From assembly GCA_945888455.1 (NCBI GenBank), contig CAMCZV010000001.1, forward strand, positions 42,582 to 106,581: a DNA stretch of 64,000 nucleotides, given 5' to 3'. Of this stretch, positions 50,488-58,441 are shown piece by piece. The position numbers were made by a program, and so were the translations under genes. How positions within the stretch are numbered: position 1 is the first letter of the stretch; each line of letters begins with the position of its first letter. The stretch comes from Candidatus Finniella inopinata. GTDB lineage: Bacteria; Pseudomonadota; Alphaproteobacteria; Holosporales; Holosporaceae. The notes beneath the pieces were generated by a model that was not told the origin of the DNA, searched no databases, and saw only the letters and a list, made by a program, of their open reading frames with translations.

Positions 50488-51441
50488 TTATTTTGGGGAA
50501 AAAGTAATCACGATGTCACGCCATTGGGCGTACGTTTCTTTTCGCAGCGGCAAGGATTCTGTACGAAATTGATTAACGGCACGCAATACGCTGTCACAAC
50601 CAATGGGATAAACGGGATGATCTTTGCTGCTGGAATCATGCAGGATTTCGGCATGATTGACTGTGCCATCGCGATTCATGGTGATGTGGACTTGAATGAC
50701 TAACTTTCCACCTTCGCTTGCACGCAACGGAATAATCCACGCATCTTCAAAAAATCGCTGGATGCGATCCATTTCACTCATGCTCATTTGCGCCCCAATG
50801 GCGGGTGCACCATATTCCGAATCGGAATTAGGATCCGTAATGGGGGTCTCTGCGCTTGAACCGCGAACCAAATCCTTGTCCCGATTTACGTTAATAGATT
50901 CAGAAATCTTTGGCTTTTTTTTTACAGATTCCCTGTGCTTTTTTAACAATTCGGCTATGGGGTCCACATCTTTGATTTTTTCCTTTTTCGGATGTGATTT
51001 TGACTTTTTCTGATCTTTTTTCTTGGAATCTTTCTTTGTCTTGGGCTGTGCAACCTCTTTTTTAGGCTGTTTTTTCGGTATAGGCGCCACTACAGGTGCA
51101 GGTTCTGGAATAGGATCCGGTGTGGGCTCTGGTGCAGGTTCTGGAATAGGATCCGGTGTGGGCTCTGGTGCAGGTTCTAGAATAGGATCCGGTGTGGGCG
51201 CAGGTAACACATTTTGTACAACCTCTTTTTCTGGCTCTGGTTCCGAAACCTCTGATTTTGGTCGAGAAATGGGCGCACAAGAAATCTCACTGACGGCTGT
51301 TACTTCTAAGGGGATAGAACACGCACTGATGTCAGATAAAACAGGGGGTGTTTTTGGAGAAAACAAAATGTTTTGTAAAAAAACCACTGAAATGATCCCA
51401 GCATGCAGGAACAAAGAGATTAAAAATGCCCATATTCTCAC
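50488..51441 (-). CDS. tolA: TolA/TonB-like energy-transducing protein
   Basis: Periplasm-spanning part of the Tol system, 317 residues. An N-terminal membrane anchor (WAFLISLFLHAGIISVVFLQ) is followed by a long Pro/Glu/Lys-rich stalk with three 12-residue units PDPIPEPAPEPT, then KKQPKKEVAQPKTKKDSKKK, and a C-terminal globular domain (IQVHITMNRDGTVNHAEILH) as in TolA/TonB C-terminal domains. It follows tolR with an ATGA overlap, which supports TolA over TonB. The pairing domain ends AQWRDIVITFSPK. The usual downstream tolB and pal genes are not adjacent. Confidence 0.85.
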   Translation of the reverse strand: MRIWAFLISLFLHAGIISVVFLQNILFSPKTPPVLSDISACSIPLEVTAVSEISCAPISRPKSEVSEPEPEKEVVQNVLPAPTPDPILEPAPEPTPDPIPEPAPEPTPDPIPEPAPVVAPIPKKQPKKEVAQPKTKKDSKKKDQKKSKSHPKKEKIKDVDPIAELLKKHRESVKKKPKISESINVNRDKDLVRGSSAETPITDPNSDSEYGAPAIGAQMSMSEMDRIQRFFEDAWIIPLRASEGGKLVIQVHITMNRDGTVNHAEILHDSSSKDHPVYPIGCDSVLRAVNQFRTESLPLRKETYAQWRDIVITFSPK

Positions 51442-51866
51442 TTTTTCTCACCTTCGATTGATTGTTCCACCACCAAATGAATTTGAGAAAACCCCGCGGC
51501 TTTTAATAAATTCATGACTTTGATGACCGCGTTATAGGGAATGGACCGCGACCCACGCAAATAAATCTTGGACGCAGAACCACTGGGTAAGGATGTCAAA
51601 TGGGTCAACAATTGAGATTGCTCTATGGCGGTATCCTTTAAAAACAGTTTTTCCTGCTCATCAATGGTCACAATAATGGGATCATCAACCTCTGCACTGG
51701 TTCCTGATCCGCCCTGAGGCAAATTGACGGGTACACTGACCTGCATCATGGGGGCAGAAACCATAAAAATAATCAATAAAACCAACATCACATCTACAAA
51801 AGGCGTCACATTAATTTCATGACGCAACGGTGTGTGTGGTCGAGAAGAGCGACGACGTTTCATCAA
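51438..51866 (-). CDS. tolR: Tol-Pal system protein TolR (ExbD family)
   Basis: A 142-residue single-span inner-membrane protein of the ExbD/TolR family. The conserved segment HEINVTPFVDVMLVLLIIFM near residue 18 carries the functional membrane Asp (in PFVDVMLVL). The periplasmic domain reads SIPYNAVIKVMNLLKAAGF near the end. A basic N-terminus (MMKRRRSSRPHTPLR) is cytoplasmic. The order tolQ-tolR-tolA is kept. Works with TolQ as the proton channel that energises TolA. Confidence 0.93.
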   Translation of the reverse strand: MMKRRRSSRPHTPLRHEINVTPFVDVMLVLLIIFMVSAPMMQVSVPVNLPQGGSGTSAEVDDPIIVTIDEQEKLFLKDTAIEQSQLLTHLTSLPSGSASKIYLRGSRSIPYNAVIKVMNLLKAAGFSQIHLVVEQSIEGEKK

Positions 51867-52538
51867 TTATAACCTCATGCACCAGGCCAAAAGTTCTTGA
51901 GAAAAAATCTCCATTCTCATGGCATAACTGTTGATAGAACTGGTTAATTTACTGTACCCCACAGAGGCCGGGATGGCCACCAGCAATCCAATGGCTGTGG
52001 CAAACAATGCCTCGGCAATACCGGGTGCCACCACCGCCAAAGACGTATTCTTGCTTGTGGCAATGGCTTGAAAACTGTTCATAATTCCCCAAACGGTACC
52101 AAACAAACCCACAAACGCCGCCATAGACCCCACAGAGGCCAACACACTCATCTGTGTGCTCATGCGTTCACGTTCTTGATCCATATGCATGGCCAGTAAT
52201 TGCTCCAATCGTTGCAGTCCCAGTTGTCGTTGATCCAGACCTGAAAATCGCTTCATCTGGCGCCATTCTTGGGCGGCAATGCTGACCATATATTGGGTGG
52301 AACCACCGTGGTTAAAACGGCCATCGATTTTATCCATGCTGGCATCTGAAAAGGTACTACTGGTTTCATCGGCTTCTCTGTTGTATTGACGCAACATATG
52401 CCATTTAGAAAAAATGATTGCCCAAGACATGGCAGAGGCCAAAAACAAGATGATAATCACCGCTTTAACGATCCAATCAGCCTGCAGAAACAACCCGATA
52501 AAAGACAATCCTTGTGCTGATACTGTATGCATTTCCAC
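51867..52538 (-). CDS. tolQ: Tol-Pal system protein TolQ (ExbB family)
   Basis: Three-span inner-membrane proton-channel subunit, 223 residues. First span about residues 20-40 (WIVKAVIIILFLASAMSWAI). The signature block LASVGSMAAFVGLFGTVWGI and the third span with APGIAEALFATAIGLLVAIP are both conserved, including the Thr/Ala-rich pore helix. It is one base from tolR and starts this three-gene operon on the minus strand. Upstream is tRNA-Arg; a promoter is expected in 52540-52710. Confidence 0.94.
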   Translation of the reverse strand: MEMHTVSAQGLSFIGLFLQADWIVKAVIIILFLASAMSWAIIFSKWHMLRQYNREADETSSTFSDASMDKIDGRFNHGGSTQYMVSIAAQEWRQMKRFSGLDQRQLGLQRLEQLLAMHMDQERERMSTQMSVLASVGSMAAFVGLFGTVWGIMNSFQAIATSKNTSLAVVAPGIAEALFATAIGLLVAIPASVGYSKLTSSINSYAMRMEIFSQELLAWCMRL

Positions 52539-52714
52539 GACGGCTTCCTCCTGTAACCTTGTGTCTGTGAATCAGACATCCCAAAGGTCTTTTGTGTATT
52601 CCATCACCTGGGAAATGGTTTGTAAAGAGGGGGAGCCTAGAATTCTTTACTCTTGAGCGTGCTTTTCCAAAATCATGGAGGTAAATTTTGGATACATGAA
52701 ATAATTTTGATTTT

Positions 52715-52791
52715 TGGCACGCCTTGCAGGATTCGAACCTGCGACAACCGGCTTAGAAGGCCGATGCTCTATCCAGCTGAGCTAAAGGCGC
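52715..52791 (-). tRNA. tRNA-Arg (anticodon TCT)
   Basis: Minus-strand cloverleaf: acceptor GCGCCTT pairs with AAGGCGT, D arm GCTC/GAGC, anticodon loop CTTCTAA giving TCT (reads AGA), T arm GCAGG/CCTGC with TTCGAAT loop. The discriminator is G, followed by an encoded CCA (52715-52717), the only one among the four tRNAs here. Confidence 0.95.
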
Positions 52792-52879
52792 ACAACATAG
52801 CCTTATCATGACGGATTTTTCTGGCCATGACAAGACTGGGGCTTTGGTTTGACGGGACAGGTATTGGGAAATATTCTGC

Positions 52880-53272
52880 TTACAGAGGGGGTGCACAAAT
52901 CACTGTGCATTGCCGTTGACAATAATCCCCTGCAAAAACACTACACCGATAAGGATATTTGCACGACGTAACATTTTTTATGATGATTTGCATTTTTGTC
53001 AGAGGAACGGCAATCAATTGACCGCTTGTTTGCATGGCTGCTATTCCCGTAGGGCCTGAGGCAAGTGCCGACGGTGCTGCAGACGTTGGTGCAGCAGTTG
53101 TTGGTGTAACTGTTTGTGGGTTGGTGCTTTGTTGTTGATCGCTATTGCCAATTTGTGCAACTTTTAGGGCAAAGGCTGCTCCAGCGGCTTTTCCAGCTTT
53201 CCCCCCTTGTACACACGCTATCATACAGACAGTGATGGCCATGGCCAAACCGATTCGAAAAAATTGATTCAC
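52880..53272 (-). CDS. Small secreted protein with a cysteine-rich C-terminus
   Basis: Not recognised. I chose GTG 53272 (GAGAG six bases upstream) over a TTG at 53290; the protein then starts MNQFFRIGLAMAITVCMIAC, ending a hydrophobic signal of lipobox-like type (MIAC). It has a Thr/Ala/Pro linker (TPTTAAPTSAAPSALA) and a C-terminal block of about 30 residues with five cysteines spaced C-x5-C-x7-C-x3-C-x3-C. The block is the size of small disulphide-knot domains. Neighbours are tRNA-Arg and ftsI, which give no functional hint. Possibly exported and disulphide-bonded. Confidence 0.5.
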   Translation of the reverse strand: MNQFFRIGLAMAITVCMIACVQGGKAGKAAGAAFALKVAQIGNSDQQQSTNPQTVTPTTAAPTSAAPSALASGPTGIAAMQTSGQLIAVPLTKMQIIIKNVTSCKYPYRCSVFAGDYCQRQCTVICAPPL

Positions 53273-53359
53273 ATTACGCTCTCTATTCAATCATTTTTCT
53301 GATTATACGAGGACAGCTATGAAAGATGATTAAACAAAAATTCTATTGAAAATATGCTT

Positions 53360-55018
53360 TTATCTTTTTCCTTTTTTCGAATGAACCTCATGGTCACAGG
53401 ATTCTGGTGTCATCACACCCAATAACGGGGCCAATTCCTGCACCAATCGAGAAATAACGGGTGCCGCCATCCACCCAGCTGTGGCATAACCATAGGTTTT
53501 TGCGCTGGCTTTGGCCCGATCAATAGACACCACAATGCCGTACCGAGGACAATCCAGAGGAAAAACGGCCACGGCCGAGGTCAGGTTCTGCTTTTCTACA
53601 TATCGACCGCCCACACGAACATTGGCCGTTCCTGTTTTTGCCCCCACCACACAATTGATGGCTGCGGCTTTTTTGGCTTGACCATTTTCCACCGCTTGCC
53701 CCATTAAATACAAAACGTCTTTGACCGTAGACGGTTTTAAAATACGTACCCCTGGGGATTTTGGGGATGCCAAAAAGGTAACGGGTTTGGCTATACCCGT
53801 GGCCAATGGAATCAAACTGGCTGCCACATGCAACGGCGTAACGGCAAATCCGTATCCATATCCAGCCGTCATGACGCGCCCTATAGGCCAATTTCCCCTG
53901 GGAAACAGGGGACGAGAACACAGACCTAACTCTGTTTTTATGCGACGAGAAAACCCCATTTTTTCAAAAAATTGTTTTTGTGCTGCCCCACCAATAGTGG
54001 CTGCCATTTTGGCGTGCGCAATATTCGATGAATAAACAAAGGCTTCTTCTACGGTTAATGGGCGGTTTTGTCCACGAAAATCTTTGACTATATGGCGGCC
54101 AATACGAAGGGGTTTAGACGCATCAAATACCGATCGTAACGTCCCCTTTTTAGTTTCCAACAGCACAGCCGTATTCGCAATTTTCATAATGGATCCAAAC
54201 TCATACACGCCTGTCATATTTCGATTAAAATAGCTGGGATCTGTAGGGCAAATGGGCTGGGAAGGGGAAAAATCAGGCAAAGACACCATGGCCAATATTT
54301 CTCCCGTTTGCAAGTCCACAATAATGCCATTGCCACCAACGGCGCTGTGTTCTGCAATTTGATGAGATAACACATCATATAAAATATTTTGCACCCGTAA
54401 ATCAAAGGATGTTCGCACACGTGCATTCGATTGCATCAAGCGCTGGTTTAAACTCTTTTCCAGGCCCGATAACCCCTGTTGATCCAAATCTGTTGTCCCT
54501 AATACATGGCAAAAAATGCGATCCATGGGGTAAATGCGCTTGGAATCGCTCAGCACATCCAACCCGTAAATGCCCAATGCCTTGACCGCCATCTTTTTAT
54601 TGGGCGCCACATGCCTAGAAATCCACACAAAGGATTTTTTAGAATACATATCACGAATCAGACGCGCCTTATCAATGCTCGGAAAAATACCCATCAATGC
54701 GGCGATGGCTTCTTCTTTATCCATCACTTTATTAGGGTGAGCATAAATGGAAAACGTATACAGACTGCTGGCTAAAAAGTACCCATTACGGTCCACCAAT
54801 GCCGCACGCACGATCTGTTTTACGCCTGGATCTGTTGGGTCCATTGGGGTTAAGCACACAATGCACAAACGCACCATAATCAAAAACAACAAAAAGAAAA
54901 AAAATGCCCCCACGATCAGGACTCGTGATTTCGGTAACCCCACAAAACCATGTTCAAAATCAATGATATCTGCGGTTTCACATTCTTCCTGATGCGGCGT
55001 CAATCCTGAATCCTTCAT
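53360..55018 (-). CDS. ftsI: Penicillin-binding protein 3, septal transpeptidase
   Basis: Septal peptidoglycan D,D-transpeptidase, 552 residues. An N-terminal membrane segment (about residues 33-55) precedes a pedestal domain. The catalytic motifs are SIMK (Ser276, Lys279 in YEFGSIMKIAN), SSN (331-332 region in VYSSNIAHAK) and KTG (461-463 in VVGAKTGTANV). The length is near the family mean and all active-site residues are present. It follows ftsL by one base, completing the order rsmH-ftsL-ftsI. The usual next genes murE, murF and mraY do not follow; mraY is at 26.5 kb. Confidence 0.95.
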   Translation of the reverse strand: MKDSGLTPHQEECETADIIDFEHGFVGLPKSRVLIVGAFFFFLLFLIMVRLCIVCLTPMDPTDPGVKQIVRAALVDRNGYFLASSLYTFSIYAHPNKVMDKEEAIAALMGIFPSIDKARLIRDMYSKKSFVWISRHVAPNKKMAVKALGIYGLDVLSDSKRIYPMDRIFCHVLGTTDLDQQGLSGLEKSLNQRLMQSNARVRTSFDLRVQNILYDVLSHQIAEHSAVGGNGIIVDLQTGEILAMVSLPDFSPSQPICPTDPSYFNRNMTGVYEFGSIMKIANTAVLLETKKGTLRSVFDASKPLRIGRHIVKDFRGQNRPLTVEEAFVYSSNIAHAKMAATIGGAAQKQFFEKMGFSRRIKTELGLCSRPLFPRGNWPIGRVMTAGYGYGFAVTPLHVAASLIPLATGIAKPVTFLASPKSPGVRILKPSTVKDVLYLMGQAVENGQAKKAAAINCVVGAKTGTANVRVGGRYVEKQNLTSAVAVFPLDCPRYGIVVSIDRAKASAKTYGYATAGWMAAPVISRLVQELAPLLGVMTPESCDHEVHSKKGKR

Positions 55019-55019
55019 C

Positions 55020-55289
55020 TTATTGGCTTGGGTATTGGGGTGATACCAGTTGACTCCTTTTCAAGGTGGACATGGGGGTGCTTTCCCCCACCACTGCCAC
55101 CATGCGCGCCGGTTGAATCAAATGGGCCAATTCATTGCGTAACGTATTCATTTCTCGTTGTACAGAGGAAATATTGCTGGTTAACTGCACCACACGACGC
55201 TCTATACCAATCACTTCGTGCTTGACGCGAAACAAAAACGCGGCCGTCATCATGGTCATTAAAATGGTAAAAAATAGAATCACTCTCAT
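55020..55289 (-). CDS. ftsL: Cell division protein FtsL-like
   Basis: An 89-residue protein from ATG 55289 (its start overlaps the rsmH stop, ATGA). It has one N-terminal membrane segment (VILFFTILMTMMTAAFLF) and a coiled-coil segment (RVVQLTSNISSVQREMNTLR), the FtsL layout. Sequence conservation of FtsL is low, so position between rsmH and ftsI is the main support. Would form the FtsQLB complex at the septum. A longer frame upstream overlaps rsmH and is less likely. Confidence 0.82.
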   Translation of the reverse strand: MRVILFFTILMTMMTAAFLFRVKHEVIGIERRVVQLTSNISSVQREMNTLRNELAHLIQPARMVAVVGESTPMSTLKRSQLVSPQYPSQ

Positions 55290-56146
55290 GATGCGCGTAC
55301 TCCGTATCTCAAACAGGCCGATCGAGATCGGGGATTGGCACACACTTCTTCACGTTGCGCCCGGATGGGTTTTTTTGTTTTTTCAGAAAAGGCATCGGAT
55401 GTTTTGAAAAAATTTTTCACAATACGATCTTCTAGAGAATGAAACGACATGACGATCATGCACCCACCTGGTTGTAACAGGGGCAAAACTCTGGGCAAAA
55501 CCACCTCTATTTCATCAATTTCTTGATTAACGGCAATGCGCAATGCTTGAAATGTTTTGGTCGCTGGATGTTGTTTTCCTCTGCGCGGCAAAACACTTTG
55601 TATCACGGTGCTCAATTGTTCTGTGGTTTGAAAAGGGGTCTTGGACCTGAATTGAACAATGGCTTTGGCAATGCGACGACTGGCGCGCTCTTCACCATAT
55701 TTGAAAATCAAGTCGGCCAAATCATGTTCTGGCAAATCATTCACCACATCGGCTGCAGATGGCCCAGCTTTTTCCATGCGCATATCCAAAGGACCATCGC
55801 GCATAAAAGAAAAACCACGTTCGGGTGTATCCAATTGTGGGGATGAAACACCAAAATCAAACAATACGCCCGCCACACGTTCTTCTTGGAACAACGCCGG
55901 TAAATCAGAAAAACGAGACTGAATCATCCGTAAACGATCCCCATAAACCGAAACCAGACTGTGACCATAGGCAATGGCGTCAGGATCTCGATCAATGGCG
56001 GTCACACGTGCGCCCGAAATGCCTTGCAACAGAGCTTGGGTATGCCCCCCTCTGCCAAAAGTGGCATCGACTAAGTGCAACGGCCCCGTTTGATTTGAAA
56101 ATAATTGTACGATTTCTTGACACATTACTGGCCAATGCGCAGTCAT
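55286..56146 (-). CDS. rsmH: 16S rRNA (cytosine-1402-N4) methyltransferase
   Basis: SAM-dependent methyltransferase of 16S rRNA, 286 residues. SAM-binding segment LVDATFGRGGHTQALLQG near residue 24, then AIDRDPDAI and LFDFGVSSPQLD. The conserved RGFSFMRDGPLDMRM block is intact. A C-terminal half has NQEIDEIEVVLP and VMSFHSLEDRIVKNFF. Head of the rsmH-ftsL-ftsI operon; an mraZ gene, often just upstream, is missing. The AT-rich gap with DnaA boxes lies directly upstream. Confidence 0.95.
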   Translation of the reverse strand: MTAHWPVMCQEIVQLFSNQTGPLHLVDATFGRGGHTQALLQGISGARVTAIDRDPDAIAYGHSLVSVYGDRLRMIQSRFSDLPALFQEERVAGVLFDFGVSSPQLDTPERGFSFMRDGPLDMRMEKAGPSAADVVNDLPEHDLADLIFKYGEERASRRIAKAIVQFRSKTPFQTTEQLSTVIQSVLPRRGKQHPATKTFQALRIAVNQEIDEIEVVLPRVLPLLQPGGCMIVMSFHSLEDRIVKNFFKTSDAFSEKTKKPIRAQREEVCANPRSRSACLRYGVRAS

Positions 56147-56309
56147 TGCTTACTCTCCCCACAGATTCAAAAAGTTTTCTGCTGTATTTCAGACTTTATG
56201 ACCAAACTTTTCAGACCGCGGAGACTGCGCTAAATAAAATTGCACCTGTGTATTTCTGCATTAATGCACCCAAAAATGATGGTATGCCCAACACACAAAT
56301 TCACGATTA

Positions 56310-56824
56310 AAACACGATACATGTGTTTCGATAGCGTATTCATCACCCATTCCACCCCCAATCCTATCATGATTTTTCTATTTACCGATTATAAAAAAGA
56401 GTAAAAAAACTAAAACCATACAAACCACTGACGACCTCTTGTGAATTGAAACGGGCTCTAAATAAAACGTTTTTGTGCCACGCCTGATGTCACTTTGCAA
56501 GAGACCAACAGAAAAAACTTAATCATCAAAATACAATTAAAAAATTATCATGGACTGAACAGCAAAGTCAAGGGAAAAAGCACTTTTTATCCACACACTT
56601 ATCCACAGGCATAAAACCCAAAAAACCCTTATTTTGCAAGACTTTTATGTAAAAATCGAAACAATGCATGGGTTTTATCCACAGTACTGAAACAGCTCTT
56701 GAATCTGTTCATGATTGATGGTAAAACGGGCCTAAAATTTAGACTCAATTCTATGCATCTGCTCCTCTGAACGCCAAAAAAATAAATAAAATTTTATCTA
56801 TTTTTTTGAATACCGTGGCCCAAC
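56310..56824 (+). other. Candidate chromosomal replication origin (DnaA-box cluster)
   Basis: An AT-rich gap free of convincing genes that holds three perfect DnaA boxes TTATCCACA, all in the same orientation: 56587-56595, 56599-56607 and 56675-56683. The first two are 12 bases apart start to start. Flanking tracts are strongly A/T-rich (56380-56420, 56515-56550, 56775-56815), suitable for unwinding. To the left, genes from 50.5 to 56.1 kb all run leftward. I inferred origin function from these features only; the elements could also be DnaA-regulated promoter sites. dnaA and hemE are not in the window. Confidence 0.5.
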
Positions 56825-58144
56825 CTACTCATCCTGACTGAACGGCCCCTGCCCACCCTCTTTGCTCGCCGATGCATCAACCAACATCTTGCCGTAATCC
56901 AAACATTCTTCATGGCTAGGACGCATTTCACAACGGATCCACCATGCCTTGGTTTGATTCAACACCCGTCCAATGTCTGGGCCAGAAATTCCAAAGGCCA
57001 TCACATCGCGTCCCGACACAGAAAACTCTGGGAAATCTGCACCATCCAACGCGGCCATAATGTCTTTACACACATTCAACCCTGTTACAAAATCTTCTGT
57101 GGCCCTTGTATTCTCAGCAAATCCCGCACCAACAGAATTCATAAGCGTCAATGCGGCCATCCATACCCGCTCTTTGGTGCAATGCACACCATACTGGTAC
57201 ACGCTGCTTAATGTCGCCAACCAAAGATCTTTCCAATTTTGCGATGATTGTTTCAACAAGCCCATGGTTTCTTGATGGGAAAACAGGGGGCTCCACAACA
57301 CATTCAGATGTTTTTTCTGATCGTTCGATAAGGTCAAACGCCGTGGCATCATCCCTGTTAAAAAGGCAAAACGCACCCACAGTGGTGATTGTCCCCACAT
57401 GTTTTCAACCCTTTCCAAACCAGAAATGCCATTCATCTGACCAGAATGCCCCCACAGCAAGAGATCAAATCCATGGTCATACAAACAATGCATCACCAGC
57501 CAAGGATTGCTGGCACCCAACATTTTAATCATTTCCTTGGTGATGCGTTCGCTGGATAGCTGGTTTAGATTGTGTTTCAAGGCCACACATTTTGCCAAAC
57601 TGTCCCCATCAGGGGTATGCCCGTACAGAGCCCAAAACCTAAAAAACCGCACAATACGCAAATAATCCTCGACGATGCGCTGTTCCGGATCCCCAATGAA
57701 TCGAATCAATCGGTTTTCAATGTCTTTCTGTCCGCCCACATAATCGTACAAGCATCCGCAATGATCCACGTACAAGGCATTCATGGTAAAATCTCTGCGC
57801 TGGGCATCGTCCTCCCACCGCGATGTGTACGCCACAACGGCGTGACGACCATCGGTTTCTACATCTCGGCGCAATGTGGTGATCTCATAACTATGCCCAT
57901 CACACAACACCGTTACCGTACCATGATCAATGCCTGTGGGAATGACTTTGTACCCATGGGATTTAAAAAAATGGGTTATTTCTTCGGGGTGATACAGGGT
58001 CGCAAAATCCACATCATCCCAAGGAATACCCAGCAAACTGTTACGCACAATGCCACCAACAAAACGCATGCCTGACGGATCTGGCAAGCAGGCAAACAAT
58101 TTTTGATACTGTTCTTGGTGCGCCCAGGAAAACAAAGTCATCAT
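56825..58144 (-). CDS. cca: CCA tRNA nucleotidyltransferase (class II)
   Basis: Adds the 3' CCA to tRNAs. From ATG 58144 the product has 439 residues. The nucleotidyltransferase head has FVGGIVRNSLLGIPWDDVDFA, with the metal-binding DVD, and the RRD box in DDAQRRDFTMNALYVD that recognises ATP/CTP. The middle has the flexible-loop and neck-type segment GDPEQRIVEDYLRIVRFFRF. The C-terminal helical body is longer than minimal CCA enzymes. The family also contains poly(A) polymerase; the lack of encoded CCA in three of four tRNAs here shows that a CCA-adding enzyme is needed. It diverges from dapF. Confidence 0.9.
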   Translation of the reverse strand: MMTLFSWAHQEQYQKLFACLPDPSGMRFVGGIVRNSLLGIPWDDVDFATLYHPEEITHFFKSHGYKVIPTGIDHGTVTVLCDGHSYEITTLRRDVETDGRHAVVAYTSRWEDDAQRRDFTMNALYVDHCGCLYDYVGGQKDIENRLIRFIGDPEQRIVEDYLRIVRFFRFWALYGHTPDGDSLAKCVALKHNLNQLSSERITKEMIKMLGASNPWLVMHCLYDHGFDLLLWGHSGQMNGISGLERVENMWGQSPLWVRFAFLTGMMPRRLTLSNDQKKHLNVLWSPLFSHQETMGLLKQSSQNWKDLWLATLSSVYQYGVHCTKERVWMAALTLMNSVGAGFAENTRATEDFVTGLNVCKDIMAALDGADFPEFSVSGRDVMAFGISGPDIGRVLNQTKAWWIRCEMRPSHEECLDYGKMLVDASASKEGGQGPFSQDE

Positions 58145-58441
58145 TCTGTCCACCAACAGGCAACACCACAATATCCTTTCGTCCGATCATTTTCAAAGGA
58201 TTTACCACCCCCTCTTTTCGCCCGATATCCGTTAACAACAGGATCAAAAAACACAGAAATCAGAATACTCTTTGGCAGGCACATTTTGTGATCAGAATAT
58301 ATCAAAATGGCAATCAAAGTCTAATTTTGATGACCTCATCGCGTTATGACCATCTGCCATTAAACCTGGCTTTGCCGCACCGCCGCAGAGATGACCGTTA
58401 AAATATATGATATCTTTAGAAAAAGAATGTACTGAATCCCT

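Follow-up and report, generated by a model that had tools for sequence, protein, structure and literature searches.

In Caulobacter crescentus, DnaA controls ftsZ, whose DnaA-activated promoter carries two boxes (PMC8203912, PMC3193534) and is, like the promoter described here, a division promoter in an alphaproteobacterium. The two systems differ in gene and promoter, and in Caulobacter DnaA acts within a CtrA/GcrA circuit, whereas GcrA was absent from all 10 genomes of the order to which the present DNA belongs; a Caulobacter-type circuit must therefore be at least incomplete in that order. In Bacillus subtilis, DnaA binds the ftsL promoter in vivo (PMC8203912), and rsmH and pbpB, the latter encoding an FtsI-type transpeptidase, belong to the same operon as ftsL (PMC11019786). 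These are in effect the same target genes as the rsmH-ftsL-ftsI series of our locus, a parallel from a distant phylum at the level of the genes; RsmH and PbpB levels in B. subtilis are unchanged by replication arrest (PMC11019786).

The mraZ/dcw promoter of Escherichia coli is described as having MraZ boxes (PMC8475190, citing Eraso 2014). Its place in front of the dcw genes is orthologous, and MraZ repeats surround the promoter as in the relatives of our organism; the arrangement as described includes no DnaA pair, whereas the genus studied here has neither mraZ nor intact MraZ repeats. The DnaA boxes located in E. coli ftsQA are irrelevant to ftsZ transcription, which counts against a function for modules of the kind reported below, and a 2021 review states that a major effect of DnaA-dependent transcription on the timing of cytokinesis has been demonstrated in no species (PMC8203912). 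A study comparing cell-cycle promoters among alphaproteobacteria searched them for DnaA motifs and left mraZ unmentioned (PMC2877005), and no report of a DnaA-box module at a mraZ/dcw promoter was found in the literature searched, which was covered in part and included few subscription journals.

Here, we analysed a 64-kb stretch of bacterial DNA (hereafter the window) in which DnaA boxes precede a truncated dcw cluster. Comparison with related genomes identifies a putative DnaA-responsive promoter module that most likely drives the remaining dcw genes rsmH-ftsL-ftsI.

The cca-rsmH gap and its promoter

The three perfect, co-oriented DnaA boxes of the original prediction, starting at positions 56587, 56599 and 56675, were verified as exact TTATCCACA matches on the forward strand (Table 1). 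The AT-rich, gene-free gap of about 680 bases in which they had been placed was measured at 678 bp, with 35.8% GC compared with ~45% in the surroundings, and the genes to its left (rsmH, ftsL, ftsI, tolQ, tolR and tolA) indeed all point leftward; the interval proposed, starting at 56310, proved too wide, the boxes being confined to 56587-56683. At the other border of the gap, just past cca, positions 56775-56808 form a near-pure A/T inverted repeat (17-bp arms, 94% complementary, loopless), possibly the end of cca transcription.

Table 1. Coordinates of the features of the cca-rsmH gap and of the neighbouring genes in the window
Feature	Position	Strand	Remarks
cca	56825..58171	-	Upstream neighbour, same direction as rsmH; right border of the gap
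DnaA box A	56675..56683	+	TTATCCACA, which becomes TGTGGATAA in the sense of rsmH transcription; distal box, 76 bp upstream of box B
DnaA box B	56599..56607	+	First member of the 12-bp-spaced pair
DnaA box C	56587..56595	+	Second and promoter-proximal member of the pair; without mismatch here, mostly with 1-2 in relatives
-35 element TTGACT	56566..56571	-	Predicted leftward dcw promoter; apparently orthologous to the -35 that relatives have within their MraZ-box core CCCATTGACTCCC
-10 element GATAAT	56544..56549	-	16-bp spacer; promoter scan and alignment with relatives
Leader	56147..56537	-	~390 nt, from promoter to rsmH; occupies the place of mraZ in relatives
rsmH (mraW)	55286..56146	-	16S rRNA m4C1402 methyltransferase; heads the transcription unit; TIGR00006, 292 bits
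ftsL	55020..55343	-	FtsL_COG5462, 48 bits, just below the 50-bit cut-off; position after rsmH
ftsI/PBP2-type transpeptidase	53360..55018	-	FtsI/PBP2 models; 2 bp past ftsL

The -35 element lies 16 bp from box C and 36 bp from box B, both boxes being upstream of it, and the position of the -10 element leads us to expect a transcription start near 56537. The scan for two-hexamer promoters returned 2 matches, with 2.5 expected by chance, so that a match of this kind is no evidence by itself, and the assignment depends on the comparison with relatives given below. At ~390 nt, the leader is long, which is a point against the proposed module. Among congeners, the leader is 70-97% identical, its rsmH-proximal half being the most conserved part apart from the promoter. 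No known structured RNA was found in the gap by Rfam, and three candidate contents of the leader were rejected, namely a structured RNA (unremarkable fold z-score of -1.3), a mraZ remnant (tblastn matches at chance level only) and a short ORF (frame broken by indels between congeners, as judged by eye on the alignment). The dcw cluster itself is truncated (50488-56146): rsmH-ftsL-ftsI are followed by a small ORF, a tRNA-Arg gene and tolQRA, and murE, murF and mraY are not adjacent.

Conservation of the box pair in the order and the class

Of the order's ten genomes, six have mraZ ahead of rsmH; the corresponding family, PF02381, has no match in G000 (the genome of the window), G001, G002 and G004 and is present in the other six. 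In relatives with mraZ, the promoter bears the alphaproteobacterial MraZ core CCCATTGACTCCC, within which lies a TTGACT -35 element. The window bases aligned to this core are CCCTTGACTTTGC, with the -35 element retained and the MraZ repeats eroded; the CCCAT repeats around the -35 and -10 elements are not intact and mraZ is missing as well, so that the site does not classify as a MraZ-regulated promoter. A purely sequence-based model, derived from seven relatives with the window excluded, matched the 64-kb window only at 56543-56607 on the reverse strand, with a modest score of 16 bits (E 5.6e-4, a rough value); under the stricter filters of a class-wide run, G000 missed E 0.001. Because the -35 element is kept in the aligned core and the model matches at this place, the promoter is identified, on sequence grounds, as an orthologue of the mraZ/dcw promoter, and the genus appears to have lost mraZ and the MraZ repeats and kept the DnaA boxes. 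The sister genus, represented by G004, mirrors this outcome: mraZ has been lost and boxes are absent, but its rsmH promoter still shows MraZ-like CCCAT repeats.

Boxes A and B and the -35 element are conserved in both congeners (G001 and G002), box A being invariant in the three congeneric genomes; box C shows one change in G002, where the promoter pair has one mismatch. Four further genomes of the same family (G003, G005, G006 and G007) harbor TGTGGATAA and TGTGGAGAA 12 bp apart upstream of mraZ, 39 bp before the -35 element. A box-like sequence also occurs there at the position of box A: in G003 it is CAATCCACA (two mismatches), again at 76 bp, and in G005-G007 it is ATATCCACA, at 80 bp. When pair positions are measured relative to the -35 element inside the MraZ core, the co-oriented 12-bp pair of the relatives is found 38-45 bp upstream of it. 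Over whole genomes and with at most one mismatch, such pairs exist only at the rsmH promoter and the likely oriC in G000, G001 and G002, and only at the mraZ promoter in G003, G005, G006 and G007; in seven of the order's ten genomes, that of the window included, the promoter pair is the sole near-perfect one besides oriC.

Among 35 mraZ-type promoters chosen via RsmH regardless of boxes, five carry the pair, in every case with a spacing of exactly 12 bp, in one orientation and within the same 45-bp stretch, other spacings being absent. The geometry of boxes and promoter is near-fixed (36-45 bp to the -35 element, one orientation) across at least eight families. The locus combines what is expected of a DnaA-regulated promoter: consensus boxes beside a sigma-70-type promoter, a geometry conserved in orthologues, and a DnaA, encoded in the genome, whose box-binding domain is conserved.

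The distribution of the module was explored in an even sample of 385 genomes of the class. A strict gapped pattern recovered only three of them, and the sequence-based model described above was therefore used instead, leading to 11 full-length matches (46-72 bits) that join the DnaA pair to the MraZ promoter, seven of which lie outside the model-building set, and to more than 100 further matches, nearly all to the MraZ half alone. Inspection showed the pair to be present in the full-length set, with a degenerate second box in some genomes (G149, G327, G157). In G334, both boxes are altered alike to TTATACACA, a possible sign that the DnaA of this organism prefers a different box. The idea of a general alphaproteobacterial feature was discarded, most mraZ promoters having the MraZ core without DnaA boxes. 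As the sister genus G004 and the majority of alphaproteobacterial mraZ promoters lack it, the module is, on this comparison, dispensable and not essential. In a quick version of the RsmH tree, with weak deep support, the bearers are clustered without forming a single clade (9 changes, as against 15 expected for shuffled labels), and at least two changes are forced by well-supported branches; the module may have arisen once, long ago, and then been lost repeatedly, or it may have been gained several times.

Possible action of DnaA at the promoter

The 12-bp step would let two DnaA molecules bind cooperatively at boxes B and C, as neighbours on the same helix face; co-oriented boxes one turn apart are also used inside the genome's own oriC. 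Box A, 76 bp further up, probably assists binding at B and C. Bound DnaA would then control RNA polymerase at the -35/-10 elements, which begin 36 bp past box B. The MraZ repeats of relatives cover this promoter as well, and there DnaA and MraZ may act together; in the genus of the window, DnaA would be the only regulator of the rsmH promoter with a site still visible. The predicted occupancy of this promoter by DnaA suggests a direct link between replication and division in these small-genome bacteria.

As to the sign of the effect, the boxes occupy positions of roughly -50 to -70 relative to the predicted start, much like those of an upstream activator, and the simplest expectation is that DnaA bound there would touch RNA polymerase and stimulate transcription; the box position thus makes activation the somewhat likelier outcome and repression the lesser, though substantial, one. 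Taken as an explanation in its own right, the same module with DnaA as a repressor or roadblock seems rather unlikely to us: DnaA is an activator or a repressor in other species (PMC8203912), but the boxes precede the -35 element instead of covering the promoter, which MraZ sites already overlap in relatives.

Alternatively, the boxes could form a titration or reactivation site of the datA/DARS type, tuning free or ATP-bound DnaA next to a promoter that is merely a neighbour. High-affinity boxes clustered away from oriC would fit such a role, and the 76-bp offset of box A could suit a nucleoprotein complex, but titration gives no reason for a near-fixed distance (36-45 bp) and orientation to one -35 element across at least eight families, and we consider it improbable.

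Other box clusters and the replication origin

The gap had originally been proposed as the chromosomal origin, on the strength of three DnaA boxes in AT-rich intergenic DNA, with a GC-skew minimum anticipated at 56.6 kb. This proposal did not hold, failing the very skew test that had been put forward with it. A far denser cluster, between glmU and fabI, comprises 11 exact boxes in both orientations within 226 bp (C1:191,693-191,918), or 14 in C1:191,693-191,931 when one-mismatch boxes are counted; the variants TTGTCCACA and TTATCCACT occur in it. The cluster is flanked on the fabI side by an AT-rich stretch and occupies the same gene interval in both congeners, G001 and G002. The boxes of the cca-rsmH gap are 92.5 kb away on the same contig, C1. 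On this contig, the one profiled out of eight, the cumulative GC skew declines from the contig start, is lowest at 183,935 and climbs beyond ~195 kb, the lasting change of sign coming just beyond the glmU-fabI cluster. At C1:99,168, where the cca-rsmH boxes lie (56.6 kb of the window), the skew is negative on both sides and the slope steady, without a turn. The gap thus holds neither the densest cluster (3 versus 11 boxes) nor, as far as C1 alone is concerned, the skew minimum, and that replication starts there is exceedingly improbable; the glmU-fabI cluster is likely the chromosome's oriC, and for annotation the origin is to be placed in that gap. The fallback reading offered at the same time, a DnaA-regulated promoter region, is the one that the comparative evidence on pair and promoter conservation strongly favours.

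The two sites share the box sequence and the co-oriented steps of 11-12 bp; they differ in that oriC has 11 exact boxes in both orientations at the skew turn, and the cca-rsmH site three in one orientation. The dnaA gene (C1:19465-20769; TIGR00362, 510 bits) encodes the box-reading signature DHTTV (DHTTVMHA). The gene and the oriC cluster are 171 kb apart, and the ~700 bp upstream of dnaA contain no box at up to one mismatch.

Exact boxes are rare, numbering 26 over the 810,702 bases of the genome; the glmU-fabI cluster accounts for 11 and the cca-rsmH gap for three. Given 12-15 scattered exact boxes, a triple within 97 bp is expected by chance ~1-2e-5 times, and on contig C1 (220 kb) only the cca-rsmH gap and oriC reach at least three boxes, with one mismatch or less, per 150 bp. 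The three-box cluster exceeds chance. That it should nonetheless be a chance cluster or a functionless remnant, as the AT-richness of intergenic DNA and the only slight excess of one-mismatch boxes over the whole window (28 versus 20.8 expected) might allow, is scarcely credible in view of an expectation of ~1e-5 and of a box geometry kept over deep divergence.

On balance, we lean towards a lineage-wide module, a 12-bp DnaA pair fixed upstream of the mraZ/dcw promoter, that would couple the initiator to the transcription of septum genes in many small-genome alphaproteobacteria lacking GcrA and that, in the genus of the window, would have outlived MraZ and left DnaA as sole regulator with a visible site. 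A module of fixed geometry on a division-gene promoter, found across deep alphaproteobacterial divergence and surviving the loss of MraZ, would constitute comparative evidence for a selected link between replication and division, and it pinpoints the exact bases for mutation. The locus may also provide an example of how a reduced genome simplifies a two-regulator promoter to one.
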